Virus record (IMG/VR): IMGVR_UViG_3300023170_000173 | Span: 1 to 23,630 of that record | Source: a virus | Length of the DNA stretch: 23,630 nt | Reading direction: 5' to 3' (one strand) | Shown: piece after piece, positions 4,260 to 21,473 of the stretch | Layout: each line of letters opens with the position of its first letter | How positions within the stretch are numbered: position 1 is the stretch's first letter | Notes under the pieces: generated by a model | The model's input: only the letters and a program-made list of their open reading frames with translations | The model's database searches: none | What the model was told of the DNA's origin: nothing | Made by a program: the position numbers and the translations under genes

Positions 4260-6659
4260 ATGGCTAGAGTATCGTCTATCATCACCAACTTCAGAGCAGG
4301 TGAGATATCGCCACGATTAGAAGGTCGTATTGATTTACAAAAATATAATGAAGCCGTAAAAGACTTAAGCAATATGATTGTATTTCCACAGGGAGGTACA
4401 ACAAGAAGACCAGGTACATACTATGCAGGTAGTAGTAAAGATGGTGGCAAAGTAAGATTAATTAACTTTGAATTTTCTGACGAACAGGCATATGTACTAG
4501 AGTTTGGTGCAAACTATGTAAGGTTCTTCAAAGATGGTGGGATACTTACAGAAGCAACAACAAATATCACAGCAATCACAAAAGCAAACCCAGCAGTTGT
4601 AACGGCTGCATCACATGGACTAAGCAATGGAGACAGAGTGTTTATTGCTAGTGTTGGTGGGATGACAGAGGTAAATAATAAAGAGTTTACTGTTGCAGGA
4701 GCTACAACAAATACATTTCAGTTGTCAGGTATAAATAGTTCTGCATTTACTACCTATACAAGTGGTGGCACTGTAGGAAAAATAGTAGAAGTTACAACGA
4801 CTTACAGCGTAACTGATATATTTGAGATTAACTATGCACAATCAGCAGATGTATTGTTTCTTGCACATAAAGACCATGCACCTGCGAAGCTAACAAGAAC
4901 TACAGCAACTAGTTTTACTTTAGCAGACATAGACTTTGTTGATGGTCCTTGGTTAGATGAAAACATTACAGCGACAACATTATACGCTTCAGCAGACACA
5001 GGTTCCGTAACGCTTACAGCTTCTGCTAGTTTATTTGCAAGTTCTGATGTGGGAAGATTGGTTAGGTTTCGTGAGATATTAGAGATACACCATGACGAAT
5101 GGGCAGCATCTACGAGTTATGCAGATGGTGTTACAGTTCGTTATAATGGTCATGTATATGAGCAGGTAACAGGTAGCACGCAAACATCAGGTAATACACC
5201 ACCAGTACATTTAGAAGGTACTGAAACATATGGTGCGTTAGATTGGGAATATAAGCATGATGGTACTGGGTACTTAGAGATCACTGCATTTACAAGTGCA
5301 ACTGAAGTAACGGCTACAGTTAAAAATGCCACAGGTGTTTTGCCAGATCATGTTGTTGGTTCAGGAAATGCCACTAAGTTATGGTCATTAGGAGCATTTG
5401 GTGGTGACCAAGGATTTCCTAGAGCTATAGCGTTTTATGAGGAAAGGTTGTATTTTGCAGGTACTGAAGGTCAGCCACAAACAATATTTGGCAGTGTATC
5501 TGCTGACTTTGAGAATCATACACCTGGTACAAATGATGATGATGGAATAAATGTTACCATAGCATCAGATCAAGTTAACGTGATAAAGCATCTATTACCA
5601 GCTAGATTCCTACAGTTATTGACTACAAGTGCTGAGTTTACCTTATCAGGTGGTGCAGGATCAGAACCAGTGACACCTACGAATGTTAACGTATTACGAG
5701 AAACAACTTTTGGTACAGGAACTGTAAGACCACTGAGAGCTGGTAACAGTACAATACTTATACAAAAGGGTGCAGAAAAAGTAAAAGAGATAACCTTTGA
5801 TTTAGACACAGATGGATTATTAGGTGTTGATTTGACTGTTCTTGCAGATCATTTAGCTAGAGGTGGCTTGACTGACATGGTATGGCAGCAAGAGCCAGAA
5901 TTACTGTTATGGTTTGTACACACTGATGGAAGGTTAATAGGTCTAACATATGATAGAGCAAACGCTACAGTGGGTTGGCATGAGCATAGTTTAGGTGGCA
6001 GTGGTATAGTAGAGAGTATTACAGCTATACCTAGTGGTGCAGAAGACCAAGTTTATCTTAGTGTCAAAAGAACAATAGATGGCTCGACTGTAAGACACAT
6101 TGTATATCTTAAGTCATTATATTTTAATGATGATGTAGAAGATGCTTTCTTTGTTGATAGTGGCTTGACATATGATGGATCGGCTACAACGACCATTACA
6201 AGCCTGAATCATCTTGAGGGTGAAACAGTAACTATTTTAGCAGATGGTGCTGCACACGCTGATAAAACAGTCAGCAATGGTACAATTACATTAGACAGGA
6301 GTGCATCTAAGGTTCATGTTGGCTATGGATACACATCATTGCTAGAAACATTGCGTATGGAAGCAGGTGCAGAAGATGGTGTTGCACAAGGTAAAATAAA
6401 GAGGATACATGGTGTGACAGCTAGATTCTTTCAGACTGTTGGTGCAGAGCTAGGTCCTGATACGGATAATCTTGACAGATTGCCATTTAGAGATAGTAGT
6501 ATGGCTATGGATCAAGCTGTTCCTTTATTTACTGGGGATAAAGAAATATCTTTTCCATCAGGCTATGATAATGATGCAAAGATTGTTATAAGGCAAACAC
6601 AGCCATTGCCAATGACAATATTAGCGATTATGAGAAGGTCTAATACGTTTGATGCTTAA
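4260..6659 (+). CDS. Tail tubular protein B (T7 gp12-like nozzle) with inserted domains
   Basis: A 799-residue protein of the T7 gp12 family, which forms the tail nozzle below the gp11 adaptor. The N-terminus is diagnostic: ITNFRAGEISPRLEGRID, YNEAVKDLSNMIVFPQGGTT and RRPGTYYAG. Further family patterns are GDQGFPRAIAFYEERLYFAG (about 380-400), INVTIASDQVNVIKHLLPAR and LTDMVWQQEPELLLWFVHTD. Two inserts stand out. Residues 108-174 resemble the small FCCH-type beta domain often seen in phage tail proteins (PAVVTAASHGLSNGDRVFI). Residues 281-333 have the Trp/Tyr pattern of chitin/carbohydrate-binding modules of the CBM5/12 type (WAASTSYADGVTVRYNGHVY ... PP ... LDWEYKH). The nozzle role is firm; a sugar-binding role for the insert is inferred. 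Confidence 0.92.
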   Translation: MARVSSIITNFRAGEISPRLEGRIDLQKYNEAVKDLSNMIVFPQGGTTRRPGTYYAGSSKDGGKVRLINFEFSDEQAYVLEFGANYVRFFKDGGILTEATTNITAITKANPAVVTAASHGLSNGDRVFIASVGGMTEVNNKEFTVAGATTNTFQLSGINSSAFTTYTSGGTVGKIVEVTTTYSVTDIFEINYAQSADVLFLAHKDHAPAKLTRTTATSFTLADIDFVDGPWLDENITATTLYASADTGSVTLTASASLFASSDVGRLVRFREILEIHHDEWAASTSYADGVTVRYNGHVYEQVTGSTQTSGNTPPVHLEGTETYGALDWEYKHDGTGYLEITAFTSATEVTATVKNATGVLPDHVVGSGNATKLWSLGAFGGDQGFPRAIAFYEERLYFAGTEGQPQTIFGSVSADFENHTPGTNDDDGINVTIASDQVNVIKHLLPARFLQLLTTSAEFTLSGGAGSEPVTPTNVNVLRETTFGTGTVRPLRAGNSTILIQKGAEKVKEITFDLDTDGLLGVDLTVLADHLARGGLTDMVWQQEPELLLWFVHTDGRLIGLTYDRANATVGWHEHSLGGSGIVESITAIPSGAEDQVYLSVKRTIDGSTVRHIVYLKSLYFNDDVEDAFFVDSGLTYDGSATTTITSLNHLEGETVTILADGAAHADKTVSNGTITLDRSASKVHVGYGYTSLLETLRMEAGAEDGVAQGKIKRIHGVTARFFQTVGAELGPDTDNLDRLPFRDSSMAMDQAVPLFTGDKEISFPSGYDNDAKIVIRQTQPLPMTILAIMRRSNTFDA

Positions 6660-7074
6660 ATTTAAGAAGTTTGAAAAAAAAGACTTGGATTTGATTGAAA
6701 CAAATTTTCATTTTCCAGAAAGCTCAAAAGCAGCTATGATGAAGGAAAGTTGTTTAAGTGCGTACACAGCAATGCAGGAAAGTAGAGTATTTATGATTGG
6801 TGGTGTATACGGATTGTGGGAAAATGTAGGTGAAGCCTGGTTTATGATGTCCAAGTATGCTTACGATATGCCGAGATCAGCAGCTAAGTATTCCAGTTTG
6901 CTATTAGATCATGTACAAGAAGACAACGATTTAAAGCGTATACAGGCAAGCGTTCATGCAAATGACAAGCAAGCCATTAGATATGTTGAGTGGTTGGGTT
7001 TTGAAAATGAAGGTTTAATGAAGAAGTATGGTCCTGATGGATCAGATTATTATCGTTTTGCGAGGGTGGCGTAA
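6652..7074 (+). CDS. GNAT-fold protein, T7 gp13-like
   Basis: A 140-residue protein in the position of T7 gene 13, between tail tube B and the gp14-like gene. The C-terminal half looks like the acetyltransferase (GNAT) motif B region: LKRIQASVHANDKQAIRYVE then WLGFENEG. The canonical R/QxxGxG/A acetyl-CoA loop is not evident (PRSAAKY occupies about that place), so activity is doubtful. Phage gp13-like proteins needed for virion assembly share this fold. ATG 6652 is preferred to the TTG immediately before it. The start overlaps the preceding stop by 8 bases (ATGCTTAA). An active acetyltransferase is the alternative. Confidence 0.75.
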   Translation: MLKFKKFEKKDLDLIETNFHFPESSKAAMMKESCLSAYTAMQESRVFMIGGVYGLWENVGEAWFMMSKYAYDMPRSAAKYSSLLLDHVQEDNDLKRIQASVHANDKQAIRYVEWLGFENEGLMKKYGPDGSDYYRFARVA

Positions 7075-7589
7075 TGGCAAACAGTATGTATGCAAATGAT
7101 GCACAGGCTTCTACTTCTAGTGGAGGTGGAGGAGGTGGCTATGGAGGATATGCTGCTGCTTCAGGTCTTGGTGCAATCATGGGATTTAAGGCGAGTCAAG
7201 CTGCTGCCAAGCAAGCAAGATTGACTGCCGAGTATAATGCTAAGGTAGCAGAGAATGAGCGAATATTATTACAGCGTTCTGCAAGAGATGAGCAAGTAAG
7301 ATTGCGTGAAGGCTCAGATAAGTTAATTTCAGCACAAAGAGTAGCTGCTGCTAAATCTGGTGTTGTTGTTGGTACAGGAAGCAACCTGCTTGCGTTGCGA
7401 GATACATATATGAACACAGAGATGGATGCTATAGCTATAAGATATGCAAGCAGTATACAAGAACAAGCAAAGACTGCACAAGCAGCTATGATTAGAGCAG
7501 AAGGTGCATCAAGAGCATCTGCAATCAAAACACAAGCCTATGCTAATTTGCTTGAGTCTGGTGCTAAAACTGCAACTTTGATGGGATAA
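7074..7589 (+). CDS. Internal virion protein, T7 gp14-like
   Basis: A 171-residue Ala-rich protein expected in the internal core and ejected to help form the DNA channel across the envelope. The N-terminus is a glycine-rich flexible stretch (SSGGGGGGYGGYAAASGLG). It is followed by long helices with the gp14-type pattern: QAAAKQARLTAEYNAKVAEN, RLREGSDKLISAQRVAAAKS, GVVVGTGSNLLALRDTY and MNTEMDAIAIRYASSIQEQA. Residues 24-38 could form a short hydrophobic helix. It shares one base with the preceding gene (TAATG). Gene order (gp13-like before, gp15-like after) supports the call. Confidence 0.83.
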   Translation: MANSMYANDAQASTSSGGGGGGYGGYAAASGLGAIMGFKASQAAAKQARLTAEYNAKVAENERILLQRSARDEQVRLREGSDKLISAQRVAAAKSGVVVGTGSNLLALRDTYMNTEMDAIAIRYASSIQEQAKTAQAAMIRAEGASRASAIKTQAYANLLESGAKTATLMG

Positions 7590-7592
7590 GAT

Positions 7593-10202
7593 ATGCCGAA
7601 GATACCTACATATGACCAACTTGGACAAAGAGTAAAAGCACCTACCACACAGTTTGGTGTAAGGGCAGATACGCAAGCATTTGTTGGTGCCCAATTAGCT
7701 ACTGCTGATTTGTTTAAAAAGGCAAGTGATTTAGCTCTCGAATTTGGTATGAAGGAAAAAGAAGAAAATACAAAGGCTGCATTTGCTGAATTGAAGACAC
7801 AGTATAACAATGAAGTAAATGATGTTATCAGAAACAGTAAGGCTAGAAGCACACTAGAAGCTGAAAATGAATTAAAAGACTTTAACAAAAAATTTGAAAT
7901 AAATTACTCAAAAAAGAATTTAACACCTAATGAGTTAAAATCTATTAAAACACAAATGGTTTTGCATCAAGGTGCTAAGATGCAAGTTGGTAAAAATTTA
8001 GCGTTTGATAGAGGTAGAGATTACAATTCTACACTTCATAAAAACGCAAGTGACAATTTGATTATAGAAATTAGCAAACAGCCTATAGGCACTCCTTTGC
8101 GTAATGCAATGGAAGATGAGCTAAGAGAAACAATTAAAATAGCTAACGAAAATGGTGAAACTAAAAACTTAACTTATATAACAGTTGACCAGGCTTTTAA
8201 TGCTATAAAAATAAATGATTTTACCATTTTGTCAGAAAACGCTCAAAGCATTGAAGAAATAGAAGAATTAAAAAATAATCTTGCGAATGAAAGGTTTATG
8301 CCTGAAACAAGCCTTAAATTAAATGCGTTATTAGATGCACAAGAAAAAAGAGTTCATGGCGAATATGCTGATGCTATTACAAGAATGATATTTGTTAGCA
8401 ATGACAAGGCTTTAACGAATGACAAAGAGTTTGATAAAGCAATACAAACTTTAAATAAATCAGAGCCAATGGAATTTGTAAACGACAAAGGTGTTACAAT
8501 TAGAGTCAACCCAAAAACATTACCTGTAAATATTTTAGAAACTATAAAAGCAAAAACACAAACAAGAAGAAACGAATTATTATCCAAAGAAATCAATGAC
8601 ATAAAAGTAAGTCTTAGTGCAGAGGTTCAAGGCAAATCTTTGTCTGAATTAACCCAAATTAGAGATAATATAGATGCCACAGGCAAAGATAGGTACAGAC
8701 CTGAGATTGAAAGTTTTGCTTCTAGGGAGCAAATGAAACAAATTATTAATACAGAAATCAAAGATAAAGCTAAAAGAGCAATAGCAGATTCAATTACAAC
8801 TATAGACAACATATCATCAGACTTGCGTTCTGATGGTGTTATTAGTGATGATAATAAAAAGAAGATAGATGATGTTTATAATACTTTTATTTTGGCAGAA
8901 GAGTATAAAAAAGCAAATGACTTTCAAATGACAGTTAATTCGGAAATAAAAGCATCAAGTGCATTTCAGTCAATTAAATTCAGCAGCAAACAGGCATCAA
9001 CTGATAAACTTAATGAGTTGAAATTTAATTGGCAAAAGTCTGGCAAAAAAGAAGATGAGTTAGTTTACAATAGTTTTAAGGCACAGGTAGCTGTAAGAGA
9101 CAAAGAAATAAAAGATGATTTTATAGGTTACTATCAAAGACAAAATCCTAAAGAGGAAATCACAACAGACAAAATGCTTAGTTTGCAAGCTGAGATGGGC
9201 ATACCTGCTCTTGAGAGAAGGGTTACTTCTAACGCACAATTAACTGCGTTTGAAGCACAGTTTAATGAGCCAGGTATTTCGTATGACCAAAAAGCAAAAA
9301 TTGGAAATGACTTTATAACAAGTTTTGGTGCCCATCAAAACAAAGTTTTACGTCATTTAATAAACACAGGGAAAATAACAACTGTAGATAATCTTTTGCT
9401 TGCATACCCAAATGATGTAAGGATTAAAGGTGTTATAACTGCCAACACACCAGCAAATATAAAATTAAATAAAGATTCAGTACAGGGTGTTCCAAAAGCT
9501 GACAGGGAAACTGTTAGTTCTGAAATGTCTACATTATTCAGTGATTATTCTATAAGTATAGTTGGTGGTGGGTTTGATGATGTTCTGAGTGGTGGTTTTA
9601 CTAAAGGCAGAGCCAATCACATACAAAATCTTAGAGGTATAGCAATTAACACAGCTAACTATTATTTAAGAGAAGGTTTGGTTTCTGATCCTACAGAAGC
9701 AGCAAAAAGAGCATATAATGAAGTTGTTGGAAATCATAACACATTTGTACAGGTAAATAATATTCCAGTTAGGTTTGGTATAGAGTACGAGCCTGTGGCT
9801 AATTCTTTAGCTGATATTTTAGAAACATCTATAATTTATAATGTTGACTATTTAAAAGAAACTGTAGAAGCACCACCTGCACCACCAGGATTAGATGATG
9901 CAGCAAAAAGCAAATGGCAAGAACAATATTATACAGACTTAAAGTCAAGAGGTACTTGGAGAACAACAACAGATGGTACTGGTGTGTATATGGTAGATCA
10001 ACTTGGTAACATGGTAAAAAGAAAAGATACAGCTATGGAACCTGGGGAAACAGGTGGGATGGCTCCATTTATAACTGTTAAGTTTGATAGTTTGGCTTTA
10101 ACATTAGAAAAATATAACGAAATACAAACTGGGCAAGGAACAATACAAGCAAAGAAAACAAGATTGATCGATCATTTTAAAACAACTGGGCAGTTATTCT
10201 AA
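7593..10202 (+). CDS. Internal virion protein, T7 gp15-like
   Basis: An 869-residue helical protein in the gp15 position. It starts with the core-protein style N-terminus MPKIPTYDQLGQRVKAP and has long charged coiled-coil regions, for example around 55-110 and 330-480, rich in Lys, Glu, Asn and Ile. No transmembrane segment or enzymatic motif is evident. T7 gp15 (about 750 aa) forms a hexameric ejection tube with gp16; this protein is somewhat longer. Its codons are markedly A-rich compared with the capsid and tail genes. The ribosome site is weak. The stop shares a base with the next ATG (TAATG at 10200-10204). Assignment rests on order, length and fold character rather than on a distinctive motif. 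Confidence 0.75.
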   Translation: MPKIPTYDQLGQRVKAPTTQFGVRADTQAFVGAQLATADLFKKASDLALEFGMKEKEENTKAAFAELKTQYNNEVNDVIRNSKARSTLEAENELKDFNKKFEINYSKKNLTPNELKSIKTQMVLHQGAKMQVGKNLAFDRGRDYNSTLHKNASDNLIIEISKQPIGTPLRNAMEDELRETIKIANENGETKNLTYITVDQAFNAIKINDFTILSENAQSIEEIEELKNNLANERFMPETSLKLNALLDAQEKRVHGEYADAITRMIFVSNDKALTNDKEFDKAIQTLNKSEPMEFVNDKGVTIRVNPKTLPVNILETIKAKTQTRRNELLSKEINDIKVSLSAEVQGKSLSELTQIRDNIDATGKDRYRPEIESFASREQMKQIINTEIKDKAKRAIADSITTIDNISSDLRSDGVISDDNKKKIDDVYNTFILAEEYKKANDFQMTVNSEIKASSAFQSIKFSSKQASTDKLNELKFNWQKSGKKEDELVYNSFKAQVAVRDKEIKDDFIGYYQRQNPKEEITTDKMLSLQAEMGIPALERRVTSNAQLTAFEAQFNEPGISYDQKAKIGNDFITSFGAHQNKVLRHLINTGKITTVDNLLLAYPNDVRIKGVITANTPANIKLNKDSVQGVPKADRETVSSEMSTLFSDYSISIVGGGFDDVLSGGFTKGRANHIQNLRGIAINTANYYLREGLVSDPTEAAKRAYNEVVGNHNTFVQVNNIPVRFGIEYEPVANSLADILETSIIYNVDYLKETVEAPPAPPGLDDAAKSKWQEQYYTDLKSRGTWRTTTDGTGVYMVDQLGNMVKRKDTAMEPGETGGMAPFITVKFDSLALTLEKYNEIQTGQGTIQAKKTRLIDHFKTTGQLF

Positions 10203-11875
10203 TGGTTGGAATGTATATACCAGAACAGACGGATGATCCTAATTTAACTAATCAATATTTTGATCTAGCCAAAGCTGGTACTTTAGATGTTTTGGGTGCG
10301 ACATTTCAAGAAACAATGTATTACAATCCATTAAACGCCTTAAATAGATTGGCAGAACAGTATACTGGGAAAGCAGATGCAGGAAAAGTAATATCTAAAG
10401 ATGATTGGAAAGAAAGCGAATATTATAGAGATGGTATACAGGTTGATGACAACGGCATCAAAGAAGGATTAGCACAACTCTTAGCCGAAAGAGTTGATAG
10501 AAGGCGTGAGTTTCAAATAACTTTACAAAGGTCTAAAGGTGGTTTTGGCTTGGGTGCTGCTCAGTTTGGTGTTGCTATAGCTGGTAGTTTCCTTGATCCA
10601 TTAAATGTGGCGAGTGCGTTCATACCTGCTGTTGGTCCAGCTAGAGTTGCATCTATGGCAGCTAAAATGGGTAAAAGTGGATCGAGAGCAGTCAAAGGTG
10701 CTGTAGATGGTGCTGTTGGTGCTGCCGTATTAGAGCCATTAATTATAGGTGCTGCTGCTGCTGAGCAAGATGAAAGCTACACTTTATTAGATAGTTTCTT
10801 AAATGTTGCTATAGGTAGTGCATTAGGTAGTGGACTTCATGTGGGATTTGGTAAGATATCAGACAGAATAAACAGAACACCACCACAAACAAGAGCTAGA
10901 GCAGAAAAGACATCAATAGGTCAGGTTCTTACTGATAAACACGTTCAAACAGATCGTATTATTGATGAAGCAGAAACGACAACAGTAAAACCTGAAGCAG
11001 AACAGGCTGACACAATTACAGTTTACAATTCTGATGGTGAGCCAAGAGTAGTAGAAAAAGTTAGGGTTGATGATGAGGGCATCATTACTATTAAAGATAC
11101 TGATGGCACTGAAAAGGTTGTGGATCAGAGTGATGTTGTAAGTAAGTCACCTTATGATGAAGACTTTGTAATTGATATAGATAAAGATGGTAGAGGGTTT
11201 TCTTTAGAGGAAATAAGAAATTATAAAACCAAAAAAGATCGAGTAAAATTTTTAGAAGACTTAGACGAAAGAATAGATTTAGAAATTGAACTTTTAGAAG
11301 AGGGTACCACAGTTACAAGTGGTATTTTCAAAAAAAAGAAAAAGATTATTATAGATGAAACAGAAATATCTAGACTAAAAACTACAAAAAAAGCCATAGA
11401 AATAGAGTTAAAACGATTAAATGGCGAAAAAATTGTAAGACCAAAAGATCCTATAACAAATCAAACCACTGAGCCTGGTGCAAAAGATACAAACACAACA
11501 GAAGAAACTGTAACCACACAAGAAGGTGCAGAGTTAACACCACAGCAAATAAATGACCAAAGAGATTCAGCTAGTATAAGTCAAGACAAGTTAGGTAGAT
11601 TAGATGAGTACGCAGACAAAGTTGATAAAATGGATGCAGACACTGCTGATTTAGGTGAAATAAAAGCTGAAGACATTGAAGCAGAAAACGAAGCTATGAT
11701 GCTTGAGTTAGAGGATCCTGAGATAATAGAATCATTACCTGATGTTGCAAAACAAACATTACAAAAAGCAAAGAAAGCCATGAAGGAAGCAGATGATGCA
11801 GCAGAAAAAGCAAGGGTTTCTTATGACAATGCAACAAAAGTAGGTGCCCAGTGCGTTATTAGGAGTAAAAGCTAA
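10202..11875 (+). CDS. Ejection protein, likely N-terminal part of a gp16-type system
   Basis: A 557-residue protein. Residues 1-110 are soluble (NQYFDLAKAGTLDVLGATFQ; LLAERVDRRREFQI). Residues 113-148 are a Gly/Ala-rich hydrophobic segment (GFGLGAAQFGVAIAGSFLDP), and further hydrophobic stretches lie at about 165-188 and 198-214. The rest is acidic and coiled-coil-like with a strongly charged patch GIFKKKKKIIIDE. Phage ejection proteins commonly carry such amphipathic segments to cross the inner membrane. T7 gp16 is one chain of about 1,318 aa starting with a lytic transglycosylase domain; I see no transglycosylase motif here. With the following 866-aa gene the total is 1,423 aa, so the pair may be a split gp16 equivalent. 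The two are joined by a TAATG overlap. Confidence 0.7.
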   Translation: MVGMYIPEQTDDPNLTNQYFDLAKAGTLDVLGATFQETMYYNPLNALNRLAEQYTGKADAGKVISKDDWKESEYYRDGIQVDDNGIKEGLAQLLAERVDRRREFQITLQRSKGGFGLGAAQFGVAIAGSFLDPLNVASAFIPAVGPARVASMAAKMGKSGSRAVKGAVDGAVGAAVLEPLIIGAAAAEQDESYTLLDSFLNVAIGSALGSGLHVGFGKISDRINRTPPQTRARAEKTSIGQVLTDKHVQTDRIIDEAETTTVKPEAEQADTITVYNSDGEPRVVEKVRVDDEGIITIKDTDGTEKVVDQSDVVSKSPYDEDFVIDIDKDGRGFSLEEIRNYKTKKDRVKFLEDLDERIDLEIELLEEGTTVTSGIFKKKKKIIIDETEISRLKTTKKAIEIELKRLNGEKIVRPKDPITNQTTEPGAKDTNTTEETVTTQEGAELTPQQINDQRDSASISQDKLGRLDEYADKVDKMDADTADLGEIKAEDIEAENEAMMLELEDPEIIESLPDVAKQTLQKAKKAMKEADDAAEKARVSYDNATKVGAQCVIRSKS

Positions 11876-14475
11876 TGAGTTGCGTAGATGAAGTCTTAGA
11901 TGCTGCAAAAAGGGCAGGTATAAATTTAGGAGAAGATGAAGCTCAAGAAATAGTAGCAATACTTGAAAATAAATTAGCAAAAAGAATGGCTAATGCAGGT
12001 GCAGATCAAGACTTAGATCTTTTTAACCTAGCAAAATCAATAGCACAACAAGCAAGAATTAACGCAGCAATAATGAGAAAGACCAGGCTTTTAAATATGA
12101 GAGCCTATACCAAGATAATGACTAAGTTAAAAGACAATCCTGATAATCCAGGACAAGTCTTAGAAGCTATATTAACAGGGGATATTAGAGTTATTGATGA
12201 TGGCTTGGGTAGTATTGATAGAAGACAGCAAGCTATTAGCTTAGAGTATGCAGGTCAGTTAGTTGCTGCATTGAGAAAAAAAGATTTAGAAGCCTTATTT
12301 AAGTCAGGCGATTTAGATGAGTTGATATACAAAGCAATGTTTGATGGTCCTGATTCTCTTGATCTTAATGTTGCTGGTGCAAGAGAAGCTGTAGAAATAG
12401 CTGAAATTGTACAAAAAGTACAAAAACAATTACTACAAAGAAAAAATAGAAATGGTGCCGTAATTGGTGAGCTTAAAAATTACGTTGTTCGACAAGGGCA
12501 TGATCCAATAATCTTGAGGAAAACAGGCAAAGATAACTGGGTTAATTATATGTTGGAGAAAGATGGTAATGGTGTTTATGTAAGATTAAGTGACCAAACA
12601 TTTGAAAGTAAAAGCCAGTTTAAAGATGGCGTAGAATACACAGATGAACAATTTATAGGCGATATATACGATAATTTAGTTTCAGGTCAGCACCAAAAAG
12701 TTGATGGTGGTGACAACATGGGTGACAAATTAGTTGGGTTTTCTGGTCCAGCTAACTTAGCAAAAAAGCTAAGTACATCAAGAGTTTTGCACTTTAAGGA
12801 TGGGCAAGCAGCATATGATTACGCACAAAAATTTACAAGGCAAAGTTTTAGCGAAGCTGTTGTAAATGGTATTTTGCATGATGGTCAAGCTATTGGTCTT
12901 ATGGAAACTTTTGGCACAAATCCAAGAGCTATGTTTGATAGAGTTTTAAAAGATGCACAAGAAATAAATAAAACTAATTTAAAAGCTAGAGAGACAATCA
13001 AAACAAAAAGATTAGAAAATCAATTTAGAGAACTTGACGGCACCACAAGAGCAAGAGGGTCAGGTAGATTATTATTAGGTGGTACTGTTGATTTTGCTGG
13101 TATAAACGCAGCTTGGCGTATGTTACAAAACATGGCAAAACTAGGTGCAGCCACAATATCTTCGTTTTCAGATATAGCAACAAAGGCACATTTTATTAAC
13201 TCAAGAACAGAAAGAAATATATTCACATCCTATTTAAGGGCATTTAGTGACATATTTAGAAACTATAGTGGCAAACAACAAAAAGAACTAGCTTACTTGC
13301 TAAACGTAGGTGTTGAAAACTTTTTAGGTGATGTCCATTCAAGGTTTGGCTCAAACGACAGTTTGCCTGGTATGATGGGTAAAGCACATCAAATGTTTTT
13401 TAGACTAAATGGTATGACATGGTGGAACAATGCACAGAAAACTGGCTTAGCTAGGATGATATCAGCAGATTTAGCCATGTATACGAACAGAGCATTTGAT
13501 GAAATACCAACAAGAACAAGACTAAATTTACAAAGATACGGAATAAATGCAGAAGATTGGGCAGTTTATAGCTCTATGGAAAAGAAAGCATTAGATGGAA
13601 ATGATTATCTAGTTCCTGCTGCTGTTGATGATGTTGATCCTTCTATTTTGGAAGCAGGTGCTTTGAGAGAAGCTAATCTTACAAGAAAAAGAAAACTAAA
13701 GAAAGTTACTGATGTTGAGTTACAGAGATACAAAGATAATCTAAGAACAAAATTATCTTCATATTTAACTGATGCAGCAGATACGGCTATCCCTACACCT
13801 GGTGCTAAAGAACGTGCTATTATGAATCAGGGCACTGAAAGAGGTACAGTGTTAGGTGAAGCAATAAGGGCATTGATGCAATTAAAAGGTTTCCCAATAA
13901 CTTATGTTACCAAGGGGATGTCACAGCAATATCATGCAAAGAAACAGGCAGGTCAAAGTGGTATATATGGTGTGGCACAGATGATGGTCGGCACTACCAT
14001 TATGGGTTACTTGTCAATGACAACAAAAGATATATTAAAAGGCAAAAGTCCAGCAGAAGTTTATGATGAAAGAGAAGGGTTAAATTATAAAACATTTGTG
14101 AGAGCATTTACACAAGGTGGTGGTGCTGGAATATATGGTGACTTTGTTTTTGGTGAATTTAATAGATTTGGCAGATCACCATTAGAAACATTTGCTGGTC
14201 CTACATTTGGAACAGCAGCAGATGTATTAAAGTTATATGCTGCTTTAAGGGATGGCAAAACAGATCAAGTCACAAAAAACGCATTTAGAACCTTGGTATC
14301 CAATACACCATATATTAATTTATTTTATACAAAAACAGCTTTAGATTATTTATTCTTATATGGAATGATGGAAAAAACAAATCCAGGTTACCTTTCAAGG
14401 ATGGAAAGAAAGATAGAGAAAGAAACAGACCAAGAATATTATATATCTCCATCAAAATCAGCAGTTAGGTTTTAA
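11875..14475 (+). CDS. Large ejection protein, likely C-terminal part of a gp16-type system
   Basis: An 866-residue mainly helical protein that closes the core-protein block. The start is MSCVDEVLDAAKRAG. Recognisable phage core/ejection patterns lie in the second half: LLLGGTVDFAGINAAWRML, LGAATISSFSDIATKAHF, FFRLNGMTWWNNAQKTGLAR, and a hydrophobic stretch at about 695-715 (GIYGVAQMMVGTTIMGYLSM). Similar WWxNxQ regions occur in very large phage proteins delivered with the genome. A ribosome site AGGAG at 11861-11865 precedes an ATG that shares one base with the upstream stop. The role is inferred from position directly after the gp15-like gene and directly before the fiber; no enzymatic motif is seen. 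Confidence 0.72.
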   Translation: MSCVDEVLDAAKRAGINLGEDEAQEIVAILENKLAKRMANAGADQDLDLFNLAKSIAQQARINAAIMRKTRLLNMRAYTKIMTKLKDNPDNPGQVLEAILTGDIRVIDDGLGSIDRRQQAISLEYAGQLVAALRKKDLEALFKSGDLDELIYKAMFDGPDSLDLNVAGAREAVEIAEIVQKVQKQLLQRKNRNGAVIGELKNYVVRQGHDPIILRKTGKDNWVNYMLEKDGNGVYVRLSDQTFESKSQFKDGVEYTDEQFIGDIYDNLVSGQHQKVDGGDNMGDKLVGFSGPANLAKKLSTSRVLHFKDGQAAYDYAQKFTRQSFSEAVVNGILHDGQAIGLMETFGTNPRAMFDRVLKDAQEINKTNLKARETIKTKRLENQFRELDGTTRARGSGRLLLGGTVDFAGINAAWRMLQNMAKLGAATISSFSDIATKAHFINSRTERNIFTSYLRAFSDIFRNYSGKQQKELAYLLNVGVENFLGDVHSRFGSNDSLPGMMGKAHQMFFRLNGMTWWNNAQKTGLARMISADLAMYTNRAFDEIPTRTRLNLQRYGINAEDWAVYSSMEKKALDGNDYLVPAAVDDVDPSILEAGALREANLTRKRKLKKVTDVELQRYKDNLRTKLSSYLTDAADTAIPTPGAKERAIMNQGTERGTVLGEAIRALMQLKGFPITYVTKGMSQQYHAKKQAGQSGIYGVAQMMVGTTIMGYLSMTTKDILKGKSPAEVYDEREGLNYKTFVRAFTQGGGAGIYGDFVFGEFNRFGRSPLETFAGPTFGTAADVLKLYAALRDGKTDQVTKNAFRTLVSNTPYINLFYTKTALDYLFLYGMMEKTNPGYLSRMERKIEKETDQEYYISPSKSAVRF

Positions 14476-14522: not shown

Positions 14523-16163
14523 ATGACAGTTAGTAGCACAACCACAAAAAACAGTTACAGTGGAGACGGAAGTACCACTACGTTTGCATACGCTTTCAAG
14601 ATATTCGCAGATGCAGACCTTACTGTCATACTAAGATCGGCTGCTGGTACTGAAACAGTACAAACTCTGACAACAAATTACACAGTTACCAATGCAGGTA
14701 ATGCTAGTGGTGGCAATGTTGAGTTCGTAACTGCACCTGCTAGTGGCGTTACAGTCGTTATAAGACGTAACATGGCACAAACACAGTCTACAGATTATAC
14801 TGCTAACGATCCATTTCCAGCAGAAAGCCATGAAGATGCACTAGATAGGCTTACATTTATTGCACAACAGCAACAAGAAGAAGTCGATAGAAGCATCAAG
14901 CTATCAAGAACAAATACTATGACATCTACTGAATTTACAGTGGGTGCAACAGCTAGAGCAAATAAAATACTAGCATTTGATGGCAGTGGAGAGTTATCAG
15001 TTACGCAAGAGCTAGGTACATTCAAAGGCACAGATGCAACAGTAACAACAGAAGCATATGTTGTAAGGGATATCATCAAATCAACGACTGCTGGTCAATT
15101 AAACAACGTATATATCTGTGTTGCAGATGCAGTTGTGGGTGATTTGCTAACAGACACAGACCATTTTGAGTTATTGGTAGATGCAGTTAGTGCAGCTACG
15201 AGTGCTACAAACGCAGCTAGTTCAGCCAGTGCTGCATCAACCAGTGCAACTAATGCAAGCAACTCAGCATCTACAGCAGCTACAGAAGCATCTAATGCAG
15301 CGACTAGTGCAACAAATGCAGCTACATCAGCAACCAATGCTTCTAATGCTCAGACAGCAGCAGAAACTGCACAAGCAGCAGCCGAAGCAGCTTTAGATAA
15401 CTTTGACGATATATACCTAGGAGCAAAAGCAAGCGATCCATCTGTAGACAATGATGGCGATGCACTTAATGCAGGTGACTTGTATTTCAATACCACCAGC
15501 AATAACCTCAAGGTATATACTGGTTCTGCATGGGCAGATGCAGCACTAACTGCTGCTGATTTTCTAACTGTTGCCAACAACTTATCAGACTTAGGCAGTG
15601 CAGCGACAGCAAGAACTAACTTAGGATTAGGTACGATAGCTACACAGGCATCAGACAATGTATCTATTACAGGTGGTTCTGTGACAGGCATCACAGACCT
15701 TACCATAGCTGATGGTGGTACTGGAGCTTCATCAGCAAGTGCTGCACGAACAAACTTAGGTTTAGTTATTGGTACTGATGTGCAAGCATTTGATGCTGAC
15801 ATTGTAGCTAAAGATGTAAACAATACATTTACTGCTGCACAAAGAGGAAGCACAGACACAGACACAACTAATAGTGGAAGTGTGACTTTGGACTTTGATA
15901 CTAACCAAAATTTTGTTTTGACGCTAACTGGAAATGTCACTCTTGCTAATCCTACTACTGAGGCAGTTGGTCAATCTGGGTTTATTACTTTCATACAAGA
16001 TGGTACTGGTAGCAGAACAGTATCACTAGGCACAGATTATGAAACAGCAGGTGGAGCAGGTTTAACTCTATCTAGCACAGCTAGTACAACGGATATAGTG
16101 CCTTATGTGGTTGTTGCTAGTGGTCGTATATTGTTAGGTACTCCACAATTAGCTTTTAGTTAG
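14523..16163 (+). CDS. Tail fiber protein (T7 gp17-like N-terminus)
   Basis: A 546-residue fiber. Residues 1-130 are the conserved virion-attachment domain of T7-like fibers (YSGDGSTTTFAYAFKIF, TNYTVTNAGNASGGNVEFVT, VVIRRNMAQTQSTDYTANDP, FPAESHEDALDRLTFI). Residues 223-291 are an Ala/Ser/Thr/Asn-rich repetitive coiled coil. Then follow an LGAKASDP...GDLYFNTTSNNLKVYTG segment, two copies of ARTNLGL (363-369 and 408-414) and a beta-rich C-terminal domain (ANPTTEAVGQSGFITFIQDG, then TGSRTVSLGTDY) common at the ends of marine phage fibers. It trimerises and carries or is the receptor-binding tip. GAGG at 14514-14517 supports ATG 14523. Confidence 0.92.
   Translation: MTVSSTTTKNSYSGDGSTTTFAYAFKIFADADLTVILRSAAGTETVQTLTTNYTVTNAGNASGGNVEFVTAPASGVTVVIRRNMAQTQSTDYTANDPFPAESHEDALDRLTFIAQQQQEEVDRSIKLSRTNTMTSTEFTVGATARANKILAFDGSGELSVTQELGTFKGTDATVTTEAYVVRDIIKSTTAGQLNNVYICVADAVVGDLLTDTDHFELLVDAVSAATSATNAASSASAASTSATNASNSASTAATEASNAATSATNAATSATNASNAQTAAETAQAAAEAALDNFDDIYLGAKASDPSVDNDGDALNAGDLYFNTTSNNLKVYTGSAWADAALTAADFLTVANNLSDLGSAATARTNLGLGTIATQASDNVSITGGSVTGITDLTIADGGTGASSASAARTNLGLVIGTDVQAFDADIVAKDVNNTFTAAQRGSTDTDTTNSGSVTLDFDTNQNFVLTLTGNVTLANPTTEAVGQSGFITFIQDGTGSRTVSLGTDYETAGGAGLTLSSTASTTDIVPYVVVASGRILLGTPQLAFS
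15189..15395 (+). repeat. Ala/Ser/Thr/Asn-rich repeat region inside the tail fiber
   Basis: About 69 codons encode degenerate repeats of the type SATNAAS / SATNASN, ending in AQTAAETAQAAAEAALDNF. In phage fibers such regions form the triple-stranded coiled-coil shaft. At the DNA level the region is a mesh of short GCA/GCT/ACA/AGT-type codon repeats, which creates misleading open frames on both strands and is a likely spot for length change. Confidence 0.8.
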
Positions 16164-16171: not shown

Positions 16172-18595
16172 ATGCCTTTTGGTTCTTCACAATGGATGTA
16201 CGCTTCTGGTGGTTTTTACAATGGAGTTGCTACTCAGTCATTAAGGTTTGATAGTGGCAGTAGTGCTAGATTAGAAAAAACACCTAGTGCAAGTGATAGA
16301 GTGACTTGGACTTGGAGTGCTTGGGTAAAAAGGTCTAAAATAGGTGTTGAAAGGGCTATTTGGTCAGCAGGAAGTACATCTGGTTTTGCTTTGTTTTTTC
16401 ATAGTAGCGACCAATTAAGATGTTGGACACAAGGTGGTAATGGTGCAATTTATACTAATGCTGTTTTTCGTGATACAAGTGCTTGGTATCATATAGCCTT
16501 AACTGCAAAATCCTCTGGTAATTATTTTGAATTATACATAAATGGTGTTAAGGAAACATCTTTTTCATTTGATGGTAGGTCAACAAATCCTGGGGGTAAT
16601 GATACTGAAGTAAACAGTAATGCTATTCATTATTTGGGTGCTTGGAACAATGGTGGCTTACAATATTTTGATGGATACTTAGCAGATGTACACTTTATAG
16701 ATGGTACTTGTGTTGGTGATACTGGTGGTATTTTAGATGAATTTATAGAAATAAAAAATGGTGTTTGTATTCCCAAAGCATATACTGGCTCATATGGAAC
16801 TAATGGATATAGATTGCAATTTAATCAAACTGGAACTGGTACTGGCTCATCTAGCACAATAGGTGCTGATACTAGTGGTAATGCTAATCACTTTACATCT
16901 AGTGGTATAGTTGCTTCTGATTGTGATATGCCAGATAGTCCAGAGAATAATTGGTCAACAATGAACTCTCTAATAAATGGCTATGGCACAAACATTACTA
17001 TGTCAGAGGGTAATCTTGCAGGAACTGGAACATCTTCTCAATATAATAATACTTTAGGCACTATCTTGATGACTAGTGGCAAATGGTATTGGGAAATTTC
17101 AAGTGCTGATTTTAACAACTATGATATGTTAGGTATTGCAATAGAAACAGCAATACAAACTACAGATAGTACACCTTATGGACAAACTGGTGTTATAGCT
17201 TATGCTACTCAAGGTGCAGTTTATAATGAAAGTGCTAGTGGAACTGGTTCATATACAGATTTTCTTGATTCTGAAATTATAGGTATTGCAGTTGACTTAG
17301 ATTCTAGTCCAAGAACATTTAAATTTTATAATAATAATACTTTACAAGGAACAATAAATTTAAGTTCTAATTTTGATGATGTTGGCATATTGCCTTTTTT
17401 CTGCATAGGAAATACAGACACAATAAAGGTTAACTTTGGGCAGGATAGCTCTTTTGCAGGATTAAAAACGGCACAAGGCAACACAGATGATAATGGCATA
17501 GGTGACTTCTATTACAGTCCACCAACTGGCTATCTAGCATTATGTTCAGTCAATCTTCCAGAGCCTACTATTAGTCCTAATGCAGATACACAAGCTGATG
17601 ATTATTTTAATACAGTTATTTATGATGGTAATAACGATGCAACAAGAACTTTTGATGTTGGCTTTGTAAGTGATTGGTCTTGGTTTAAAGCTAGAAGTGG
17701 AGCAGGTTATGGACATCAATTATATGATAGTGTTAGAGGTGTACAGTTAACATTAAGAAGTAATACTTCTGATTCAGAAGCTACAAACTCAGAGGGCGTT
17801 CTTGATTTTGATGACAATGGATTATTAAAAATAGGAACTGATGCTTTCTTAAATGAAAGTGGCACTACTATGGTTATTTGGAACTGGAAAGCAGGAGGAA
17901 CTGCTGTAAGCAATACAGATGGTACTATAACAAGTTCAGTAAGTGCAAATACAGATGCAGGGTTTAGCATTGTTAGTTATAGTGGGAATGGTGTTAGTGG
18001 TGCAACGTTAGGTCACGGATTATCTCAAGCACCTAATTTTGCTATCTGCAAAAAAAGAAGTGCTACTGCAAATTGGAGAGTAGGTACTGACGGAACTGGT
18101 ACATTAATTGATGGTTATTTTAATTTAACTAATTCAATGGCAGCAGACAGCACAACCTATCAAGCCTTTAATTCATCAACGATTACTCTTGGTGATTCTC
18201 AAGATGTTAATGGTTCTGGTGTAACTACTTATATAATGTATGTATTTCATGATGTAGAAGGCTACAGTAAATTTGGTAGTTATACTGGTAATGGTTCATC
18301 AGATGGCACGTTTGTTTATACTGGATTTAGACCTGCTTGGTTGATGGTTAAGGTAACTAATATCTCTGGTGAAAATTGGCATATGTTTGATAGCGAAAGA
18401 GCACCATTTAATGTTGTTGTGCCAAGATTAATTGCAGATGATAGCACAGCAGAAAACAACAATGATAATATTTTAGATTTTACATCAAATGGGTTTAAAT
18501 GGCGAGATAGTAATGCAGGATATAATGGTAGTGGTAACACCTACATCTTCATGTGTTTTGCTGAAAATCCTTTTAAATATGCTAATGGAAGATAG
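16172..18595 (+). CDS. LamG/SPRY-domain virion protein with C-terminal triple repeat, likely host-surface binding
   Basis: An 807-residue protein directly after the fiber. It has a short start tag (MPFGSSQWMYASGGFY) of a type recurring in marine phage fiber-associated proteins. A LamG/concanavalin-type jelly roll follows (about 21-180: SLRFDSGSSARL, WTWSAWVKRS, AWYHIALTAK, FELYINGVKE, QYFDGYLADVHFIDGT). A SPRY-like domain spans about 300-425 (GKWYWEIS, MLGIAIE, IIGIAVDLDSSPRTFKFYNN, IKVNFGQ). Three related beta-rich units lie at about 476-573, 595-695 and 698-807. There is no signal peptide or hydrolase motif. Such domains bind glycans or proteins, so a receptor-binding or tail-tip role is likely. 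Codons are more T-rich than in the fiber, which may reflect separate ancestry. Confidence 0.82.
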   Translation: MPFGSSQWMYASGGFYNGVATQSLRFDSGSSARLEKTPSASDRVTWTWSAWVKRSKIGVERAIWSAGSTSGFALFFHSSDQLRCWTQGGNGAIYTNAVFRDTSAWYHIALTAKSSGNYFELYINGVKETSFSFDGRSTNPGGNDTEVNSNAIHYLGAWNNGGLQYFDGYLADVHFIDGTCVGDTGGILDEFIEIKNGVCIPKAYTGSYGTNGYRLQFNQTGTGTGSSSTIGADTSGNANHFTSSGIVASDCDMPDSPENNWSTMNSLINGYGTNITMSEGNLAGTGTSSQYNNTLGTILMTSGKWYWEISSADFNNYDMLGIAIETAIQTTDSTPYGQTGVIAYATQGAVYNESASGTGSYTDFLDSEIIGIAVDLDSSPRTFKFYNNNTLQGTINLSSNFDDVGILPFFCIGNTDTIKVNFGQDSSFAGLKTAQGNTDDNGIGDFYYSPPTGYLALCSVNLPEPTISPNADTQADDYFNTVIYDGNNDATRTFDVGFVSDWSWFKARSGAGYGHQLYDSVRGVQLTLRSNTSDSEATNSEGVLDFDDNGLLKIGTDAFLNESGTTMVIWNWKAGGTAVSNTDGTITSSVSANTDAGFSIVSYSGNGVSGATLGHGLSQAPNFAICKKRSATANWRVGTDGTGTLIDGYFNLTNSMAADSTTYQAFNSSTITLGDSQDVNGSGVTTYIMYVFHDVEGYSKFGSYTGNGSSDGTFVYTGFRPAWLMVKVTNISGENWHMFDSERAPFNVVVPRLIADDSTAENNNDNILDFTSNGFKWRDSNAGYNGSGNTYIFMCFAENPFKYANGR
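17597..18592 (+). repeat. Three diverged protein repeats of about 100 residues
   Basis: Units at residues 476-573, 595-695 and 698-807 of the LamG/SPRY protein share one pattern: aromatic-x(3-4)-Y-x-G-N, then an aromatic-containing segment before a Lys (SDWSWFKARS; APNFAICKKR; PAWLMVKVTN), a W or H plus D segment, and a closing SGxTxYI/V-type strand (SGTTMVIWNW; GVTTYIMYVFHD; SGNTYIFMCFAE). Identity is low, so this is an old duplication visible mainly at protein level. Confidence 0.65.
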
Positions 18596-19987: not shown

Positions 19988-20196
19988 TGGTTACAGTAGA
20001 ACAATTCCTTAAATGGAAGATACTACCAAGATGTATGATGCTTGCTAGTACAGTCATGTCATGGAGATGTGCTGAATGGTTTATGGATTTAGATGCACCA
20101 ACAGCAGCACAATCAGCATTTGTATCTGTGGTTATGGGTGTAATGACAGGTGTCTTTGGTATATGGATGGGTCACGAACATAAGGAGCATAAGTAA
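19987..20196 (+). CDS. Small two-TM, holin-like protein
   Basis: A 69-residue protein with two predicted membrane helices (about 12-33, PRCMMLASTVMSWRCAEWFM; about 43-61, SAFVSVVMGVMTGVFGIWMG) and a charged His/Lys tail (HEHKEHK). Size and topology resemble class II holins or antiholins, and the gene lies immediately upstream of the 3TM-superfamily holin and three genes before the endolysin. It shares a base with both neighbours (TAATG). It could tune lysis timing as a second holin or antiholin, or be a membrane protein unrelated to lysis. Confidence 0.62.
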   Translation: MVTVEQFLKWKILPRCMMLASTVMSWRCAEWFMDLDAPTAAQSAFVSVVMGVMTGVFGIWMGHEHKEHK

Positions 20197-20591
20197 TGTT
20201 AACAGCATTGATAGGACCAGTTACCAATTTAGTTGGTAAGTTTATAGAAGATAAAGATGCCAAGAATAAGTTGGCACATGAGATAGCAACTATGGCTGAA
20301 AAGCACGCCCAGGAGTTAGCTAAAGGACAACTAGAGATAAACAAGGCAGAAGCACAACATAAGTCAATCTTTGTTGCTGGTTGGAGACCTTTTATTGGCT
20401 GGACTTGTGGTGTAGCTTTGTGTTGGCACTTTGTCCTGGCACCAGTAACAATGTTCTTGTGTGCTTACATAGGTGTAACAATACCTGATCTCCCAACATT
20501 TGACATGGGATCACTTATGACTGTATTAATGGGTATGTTAGGATTAGGTGGTCTTAGAACTTATGAGAAGCAAAAAGGATTGACAAAATGA
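20196..20591 (+). CDS. Holin of the 3TM superfamily
   Basis: A 131-residue protein with the layout of the phage/GTA 3TM holin superfamily: an amphipathic N-terminal helix (LTALIGPVTNLVGKFIEDKD), a charged helix (LAHEIATMAEKHAQELAKGQ), then the hallmark WRPFIGWTCGVAL leading into membrane helices at about 65-92 and 104-121, with a basic C-terminus. Holins open the inner membrane to release or activate the endolysin, here an M15 enzyme without a signal peptide encoded two genes downstream. The ribosome site is AAGGAG at 20182-20187. TAATG and ATGA overlaps join it to its neighbours. Confidence 0.85.
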   Translation: MLTALIGPVTNLVGKFIEDKDAKNKLAHEIATMAEKHAQELAKGQLEINKAEAQHKSIFVAGWRPFIGWTCGVALCWHFVLAPVTMFLCAYIGVTIPDLPTFDMGSLMTVLMGMLGLGGLRTYEKQKGLTK

Positions 20592-20764: not shown

Positions 20765-21024
20765 TGGCACTAACAAAGCGACAAAGATCCCTGAAATCGT
20801 GGACAAAACAGAAATGGCGTACTAAAAGTGGTAAACCTAGTACACAAGGGCGTAAAGCAACAGGTGAGCGTTATCTACCTGAGAAAGCGATTAAGGCTCT
20901 TAGTGCCAGTGAATACGCCAAGACTACGGCTGCTAAACGAAAAGCAACTAGAGCAGGTAGACAAGTATCTAAACAACCCAAAAAGATTGCAGCAAAAACG
21001 AAAAGATATAGAAAGGTTAAGTAA
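20764..21024 (+). CDS. Small basic protein with SGKPSTQGRKATGERYLP motif
   Basis: An 86-residue protein of high positive charge. Conserved-looking parts are LTKRQRSLKSWTKQKWRTKS, TGERYLPEKAIKALSASEYA, TTAAKRKATRAGRQVSKQP and a basic tail (KTKRYRKVK). I recognise this as a recurrent marine phage family, often adjacent to the WSARKAQ-type gene. A DNA-binding or virion role would suit the charge but is unproven. TAATG junctions on both sides link it to the preceding small gene and to the endolysin. Confidence 0.72.
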   Translation: MALTKRQRSLKSWTKQKWRTKSGKPSTQGRKATGERYLPEKAIKALSASEYAKTTAAKRKATRAGRQVSKQPKKIAAKTKRYRKVK

Positions 21025-21473
21025 TGTCAAAGCTGAGTCCAAACTTCTCTCTGAACGAATTAACGAAGAGTCAAACAGCAGAACGTAAAGGCATTGTCAA
21101 TGCTCCTAATGCTGATGAGATATATAACTTGAGGTTGTTAGCTGAGAATATCTTGCAGCCAATACGAGATAAGTTTGGTTCATTCATAGTATCAAGTGGT
21201 TACAGATGCCCAGAGTTATCTGTTGCTATAGGAAGTTCTGAGAATAGTCAGCACTGTAAAGGACAAGCAGCAGACTTTGAGGTAGCTGGTGTAGATAACT
21301 ACGAGCTTGCCAAATGGATAGAAGAAAACCTGGACTTTGACCAGTTAATCTTAGAATGTTATACTGGTGGTAACAGTGGCTGGATTCACTGTAGTTATGT
21401 TGATAAAGGAAGAAAAGAAACACTAACTTATGACAAGATTAACGGCTATAGAAGTGGTTTGATTAATGGCTAA
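21024..21473 (+). CDS. M15-family peptidase, endolysin
   Basis: A 149-residue zinc peptidase of the M15 (D-Ala-D-Ala carboxypeptidase-like) group that would cut peptidoglycan cross-bridges. Zinc-site residues are visible: His77 and Asp84 in SQHCKGQAADFEV, and His122 in GWIHCSYV. Upstream lie NFSLNELTKSQTA, a helix (NLRLLAENILQPIRDKFG) and VSSGYRCPELSVAIG, all usual for this family. Glu111 lies in the strand before the last zinc ligand. Length is normal for a single-domain phage M15 enzyme. There is no signal peptide, so release through the holin is expected. It overlaps the next gene by 8 bases (ATGGCTAA). Confidence 0.9.
   Translation: MSKLSPNFSLNELTKSQTAERKGIVNAPNADEIYNLRLLAENILQPIRDKFGSFIVSSGYRCPELSVAIGSSENSQHCKGQAADFEVAGVDNYELAKWIEENLDFDQLILECYTGGNSGWIHCSYVDKGRKETLTYDKINGYRSGLING

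Follow-up and report, generated by a model that had tools for sequence, protein, structure and literature searches.

The window analysed here, a 23,630-base virus record of a marine phage, encodes an 807-amino acid (aa) protein directly after the tail fibre gene, and the question is what such a protein does there. The capsid protein of this phage is closest to those of the Pelagibacter phages HTVC035P and HTVC010P (77% identity), and the tail tube protein also places it near this group; on sequence grounds, the host may be of the Pelagibacter type. HTVC010P-type pelagiphages are a widespread group for which, to our knowledge, no receptor has been described. A preliminary description, made from the window alone, had noted the position of the gene beside the fibre, and the two genes are indeed consecutive, with a spacer of 8 bases between them. 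We consider it fairly probable that the protein is a distal fibre adhesin whose N-terminal peptide attaches it to the end of the fibre and whose recognition domains can be exchanged, followed by a gene for a chaperone-like protein (Table 1).

Table 1. Features of the fibre and adhesin region of the window
Feature	Positions	Strand	Basis
Tail fibre gene, 546 aa	14523..16163	+	N-terminal ~118 residues match phrog_1640 and phrog_13893 (tail-protein families)
C-terminal module of the fibre, residues 443-546; putative socket of the adhesin N-terminal peptide	15849..16163	+	Comparison across relatives
LamG-SPRY-DUF7483 adhesin candidate, 807 aa, ATG start	16172..18595	+	ORF, Pfam, AlphaFold model
N-terminal residues 1-15 (contain FGSSQWMYAS), putative docking peptide	16172..16216	+	Model and alignment
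LamG/pentraxin-like jelly roll, residues 17-261 in the model, 34-177 in Pfam	16220..16954	+	Pfam and model
Conserved linker 1, residues 190-265; holds several recombination breakpoints	16739..16966	+	Comparison of relatives
SPRY domain, residues 256-462 in the model, 304-425 in Pfam; most variable part of the protein	16937..17557	+	Pfam and model
Conserved linker 2, residues 431-475; pelagiphage relatives split into two genes near its end	17462..17596	+	Comparison of relatives
DUF7483, residues 476-800, three repeats	17597..18571	+	Pfam, model and HHalign
DUF7483 repeat 1	17597..17911	+	HHalign
DUF7483 repeat 2	17951..18262	+	HHalign
DUF7483 repeat 3	18257..18577	+	HHalign
Tail-fibre-assembly (chaperone)-like protein, 183 aa	18605..19156	+	Profile matches

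The preliminary description had proposed that one protein joins a LamG jelly roll, a SPRY-like domain and three diverged beta repeats of about 100 residues, and Pfam, the modelled folds and HHalign agree on this. Laminin_G_3 (PF13385) is matched with 57.4 bits (cut-off 27.6), SPRY (PF00622) passes narrowly with 28.1 bits (cut-off 26.3), and DUF7483 (PF24299) is matched with 350 bits over positions 3-330 of its 330-position profile. By sequence the protein is thus a member of the DUF7483/phrog_19943 marine phage proteins (phrog_19943, E 9e-193), and phage isolates carry relatives over most of its length. Sequence searches of the PDB and NCBIfam gave no match, and a search of a viral structure library recovered relatives, few of them named. 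An AlphaFold model built from 64 relatives (the structure alignments held 64 and 71 sequences) has a mean pLDDT of 89.7 and a pTM of 0.90, with residues 1-12 as the sole stretch below a pLDDT of 50. In this model the SPRY region superimposes on the SPRY domains of human DDX1 (4xw3_A; Z 24.1, rmsd 2.5, 184 residues aligned) and Ash2L (5f6k_B; Z 23.3), and as modelled it is a true SPRY fold. The LamG region is similar to the carbohydrate-binding protein 4dqa (Z 20.3) and to pentraxins (Z about 18; C-reactive protein 1gnh, Z 18.4), so structure prediction bears out both domain calls.

Laminin_G_3 lies within the concanavalin A-like lectin/glucanase superfamily, as would suit a virion enzyme of the concanavalin-like glucanase type that degrades or binds carbohydrate, instead of an adhesin. 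However, the best structural neighbours of the LamG region include the carbohydrate-binding protein and the pentraxins, and the metalloproteinase PAPP-A and dimethylformamidase are also among the neighbours via their lectin-like domains. Two glycosidase motifs were searched for: the GH16-like motif E.D..E is absent from the window protein and occurs anywhere in just 3 of 76 relatives, and the Asp box, a sialidase motif, was not found. No enzyme family was matched in Pfam, PHROGs or NCBIfam, and we regard an enzyme as very improbable.

The three DUF7483 repeats, each of about 100 residues, align with one another with HHalign probabilities of 98.6% (repeats 1 and 2), 98.1% (2 and 3) and 98.7% (1 and 3), against less than 2% for all six control pairings with LamG and SPRY. 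In the model, all three repeats have their strands and one short helix in almost identical order. When single sequences are compared, repeats 1 and 3 alone stand out (z 11.2; the other two pairs have z 1.7 and 2.0). Modelled alone, DUF7483 reaches a pLDDT of 92.8. A Foldseek search of the PDB returned no match at E 0.001 (0 of 708 at E<=10), and the best result of a fold comparison was VIA, with a Z of 5.6. All matches were weak, and they include PCSK9, an adiponectin trimer in a single chain, a phage tailspike and the T7 fibre tip; we claim no fold from them, and a single-chain pseudo-trimer would be speculation.

Matches to the adhesin were found in 69 of 50,697 phage records, 43 of which cover at least 80% of the protein, and they include phages of Pelagibacter, Synechococcus, Roseobacter and OM43. 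Judged by sequence, the LamG-SPRY-DUF7483 architecture is therefore not unique to the window phage. SPRY had been described as best known from eukaryotic proteins, but it is not new in those of phages: the SPRY part alone has matches in 39 of these 50,697 records (DUF7483 part, 69). In HTVC010P no adhesin match was found in the part searched (base 10,000 onward). Of 436 candidate stretches in viral contigs, 430 were confirmed, of which the best 80 were used, and an alignment of 76 rows was made from the window protein and 75 distinct ORFs longer than 650 aa, including those of CRP-811 and MEP301. DUF7483 was detected in 58 of 58 relatives scanned (E 0.001), SPRY in 36 and LamG in 27; we think that the two lower counts come partly from divergence. 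One contig carries a tandem pair of different full-length adhesin copies (L060:5851-10919).

Our literature search found no paper that names DUF7483, and nothing on-topic for SPRY phage adhesins or for the pairing of SPRY with LamG in phages; a lone mention of SPRY was in a conference report. The available portions of three papers on marine phages (PMC6487183, PMC5628999 and PMC9004378) and of the MEP301 paper (PMC8024684) do not mention SPRY. A study of metaviromic islands of marine phages, which covered HTVC010P relatives, describes in the portion available lectin-like, tail fibre and fibre-assembly genes as among the most frequent identifiable ones in variable islands (PMC3909814), and the word SPRY has 0 occurrences in that paper. 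What is new here is the anatomy of the LamG-SPRY-DUF7483 architecture, its mosaic at the level of domains, and the pairing of peptide and fibre.

Where in the virion would the protein sit? The family phrog_19943 is filed under head and packaging as 'virion structural protein', which would fit a protein that decorates the capsid and helps virions adhere to surfaces. In the window, however, the gene lies between the fibre and assembly-like genes, away from the capsid genes, and in CRP-811 the adhesin gene comes after a fibre gene, where the tail genes end. Moreover, one kind of fibre-end module is found directly upstream of the adhesin or its relatives in both podo- and siphophages. Fibre ends of the window kind occur in 11 phage records, and the next gene encodes a DUF7483 protein in CRP-811, SS120-1 and PSS2. 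The siphophage CRP-811, a cultured Roseobacter phage, has the same order of fibre and adhesin as the window, and in SS120-1 and PSS2 a LamG-DUF7483 protein comes immediately after a fibre that carries this end module. A place on the capsid is thus very improbable in our judgement. Gene order, the pairing with the fibre end described below and the chaperone-like neighbour suggest instead a position at the fibre tip and a role in receptor binding.

The 183-aa protein encoded downstream could aid folding or assembly of the adhesin. The tail fibre assembly family phrog_4912 is matched by 31 of 47 downstream homologues (47 of 66 sequences, selected by us, form the alignment) and by the window protein weakly (E 9e-4). 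Pfam Phage_tail_APC was detected in 1 of the 47 homologues and is absent from the window protein. In CRP-811, the gene after the adhesin (L082:10418-10960) encodes a protein 52% identical to the window 183-aa protein and is annotated as N-acetylmuramidase/lysin, and one of the two names, assembly-like or muramidase/lysin, is probably wrong.

The adhesin gene had also been described as T-rich in a way that differs from the preceding fibre gene. Taken over whole genes, this holds: third-position T is 0.53 against 0.40, and at fourfold sites it is 0.52 against 0.39. The T-rich style of the adhesin gene, however, is already present in the final 105 fibre codons (0.50, and 0.53 at fourfold sites), and the contrast does not extend to them.

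Across relatives, the fibre end varies together with residues 1-15 of the adhesin (Mantel test; Spearman 0.58, partial 0.47, 0/999 permutations, and 0/1999 after removal of near-duplicates), and its correlation with LamG, SPRY and DUF7483 is about 0. Of the 76 rows, 59 entered these tests, since the others lack the N-terminus, an adjacent upstream gene or a downstream one; the set cleared of near-duplicates has 57. Smaller links of the fibre end were found with linker 2 (partial 0.20, 1/999) and the assembly-like gene (0.26, 2/999); those with residues 1-15 and linker 2 persist without near-duplicates. Relatives with a WMY peptide have a median fibre-end similarity to the window of 0.88, against 0.26 for the others, in a class split that is imperfect (lowest member 0.51, highest non-member 0.73).

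Because peptide and fibre end are neighbours in the DNA, part of this co-variation could be mere linkage. Linkage could even account for all of it, in an adhesin that makes no physical contact with the fibre through its peptide: the two stretches are adjacent, both lie upstream of common crossover sites and would move as one block, and several shared blocks start only after residue ~20-25. Yet in distant pairs the proteins are alike and the codons largely are not. The peptide of L079 has 10 of 10 motif residues and 1 of 8 codons in common with the window, that of L019 has 2 of 7 codons in common, and the fibre ends of the window and CRP-811 are identical at 83 of 95 residues (87%), of which only 23 of 83 have identical codons. 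Thus, the two elements appear to be old and constrained, kept by selection and not by recent transfer. In addition, residues 1-12 are predicted to be disordered on their own. Linkage as the sole cause seems to us rather unlikely. A second correlation, between the assembly-like gene and linker 1 (partial 0.42, and 0.40 without near-duplicates), involves stretches that are not adjacent in the DNA; we do not claim contact between their products, since shared ancestry of a conserved frame explains it equally well.

In the docked adhesin that we favour, the disordered N-terminal peptide would dock on the C-terminal module of about 100 residues in the upstream fibre, and LamG, SPRY and the three-repeat DUF7483 would face outward to the host and carry recognition. 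If so, peptide and socket would predict from sequence which fibre and tip belong together.

The preliminary description had suggested a modular, fast-changing protein, and comparison with the nearest full relative, in the phage of contig L002, supports this. The major capsid proteins of the two phages are 98% identical; identity is 82-98% for the run of genes that begins with the portal and ends with the acetyltransferase, and 81-100% for the genes past the adhesin. The fibre is at 77% and the adhesin at 52%, against 77-100% for most other genes if the internal-virion block is set aside. The adhesin is nevertheless not the gene that varies most near the fibre, as had been thought possible: the three internal-virion (ejection) genes just upstream (7593-14475) have no detectable match in the L002 phage, and the gene at 7074-7589 is only 53% identical. 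Relative to that phage, the internal-virion genes at window 7074-14475 are replaced as a block, with flanking genes mostly at 77-100%.

Within the adhesin, identity to the L002 protein is 87% in residues 1-15, 32% in LamG, 79% in linker 1, 31% in SPRY, 64% in linker 2 and 60% in DUF7483. The last value arises because repeat 3 is nearly identical (~96%; from about residue 701, 86-100% per block and 89-97% in DNA), unlike repeats 1-2, which mostly are not highly identical. Other pairs share different parts. L024 and L062 are at 99-100% DNA identity from residue 1 to about 210 and at 44% past linker 1; L009 and L010 have SPRY in common (92-100%), L053 and L054 LamG (87-96%), L030 and L039 the LamG core (99-100%), and L072 and L074 repeats 1-2 (84-99%). 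With thresholds that we set ourselves, one domain is alike and another is not in 19 of 1711 pairs, and breakpoints fall mostly within the conserved linkers.

In most pairs LamG, SPRY and DUF7483 are about equally distant, as ordinary fast divergence of a single gene, with no exchange of domains, would produce. This is hard to reconcile with the pairs alike in one domain, where the shared block has 87-100% DNA identity and its surroundings about 35-60%. The members of each of the five pairs named above come from different samples (L020 and L024 are from one sample), and divergence alone is highly improbable. Under the docked-adhesin reading, phages would alter their host specificity by trading individual domains, crossing over for the most part in the conserved linkers; the socket, the peptide and the linkers themselves would be kept. 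If this is right, the mosaic map indicates which domains to test for receptor binding. We also considered that SPRY variation might be confined to loops and rejected this, since strands vary as much as loops (entropy 2.59 and 2.47); SPRY thus does not look like a rigid frame bearing hypervariable loops, a point against the reading favoured here. As a sign of a diversity-generating retroelement target we looked for direct repeats of at least 40 bases, and none were found in the window with 14-base seeds, in a fragment where template/variable pairs can break a seed.

In pelagiphages the adhesin is split. Among the matches listed, the match spans at least two annotated genes in 24 of 24 Pelagibacter records (26 Pelagibacter records overall), and a single feature in 15 of 16 non-Pelagibacter matches. 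In the two pelagiphages inspected closely, HTVC011P (gp36/gp37; L083:5998-8360) and Greip (gp3/gp2; L085:5986-8309), the genes are adjacent and divided at the border of SPRY and DUF7483. The stop and start of the two HTVC011P genes overlap as TAATG, and the first product lacks the N-terminal peptide, its sequence starting with the LamG domain. Since this form is in two genes and has no peptide, another mode of attachment must exist.

Among known systems, the closest analogy is with T2-type gp38 (PP01, S16), a separate fibre-tip protein whose N-terminus joins gp37, with mismatched pairs incompatible; it is a polyglycine sandwich with variable loops, its variable regions lying between conserved motifs (PMC12892980, as far as its available portion goes). 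The adhesin would resemble it in being a separate tip protein joined to the fibre by its N-terminus, here through the proposed docking, with variable parts between conserved ones. It differs from what that portion describes in consisting of LamG, SPRY and a three-repeat domain and in exchanging whole domains. No gp38 family appeared in the Pfam, PHROGs or PDB sequence results, nor among the structural matches listed. The adhesin may thus function like gp38, by analogy, and we do not claim kinship. In Alteromonas phages, fibre and chaperone form a host recognition unit common to different morphologies (PMC10579305, available portion); the recognition part described there consists of the fibres' own distal domains, whereas here it would be a separate mosaic protein.

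A wider reading, which we put forward tentatively and are more inclined to doubt than to accept, is that ocean phages share a combinatorial adhesin system. Through a conserved peptide and socket, podo- and siphophages that are unrelated could carry one kind of tip, and at least four separately exchangeable modules (LamG, SPRY, repeats 1-2 and repeat 3) would recombine at fixed linkers. DUF7483 would have a new fold, which might be a pseudo-trimer in a single chain, and in pelagiphages the tip would have been divided between two genes that cooperate.

Some other features of the window were also recorded. A tRNA search found none. A GNAT acetyltransferase-like gene (6649-7074) is weak (E 0.006, below the cut-off) and overlaps the tail tube B gene, and in pelagiphages an acetyltransferase is annotated at the equivalent place. 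The lysis genes encode a GTA_holin_3TM holin (20196-20591) and an M15-type peptidase endolysin (21024-21473). Both the direction of the genes and the GC skew switch at about 21900, and the main ORFs beyond are on the minus strand.
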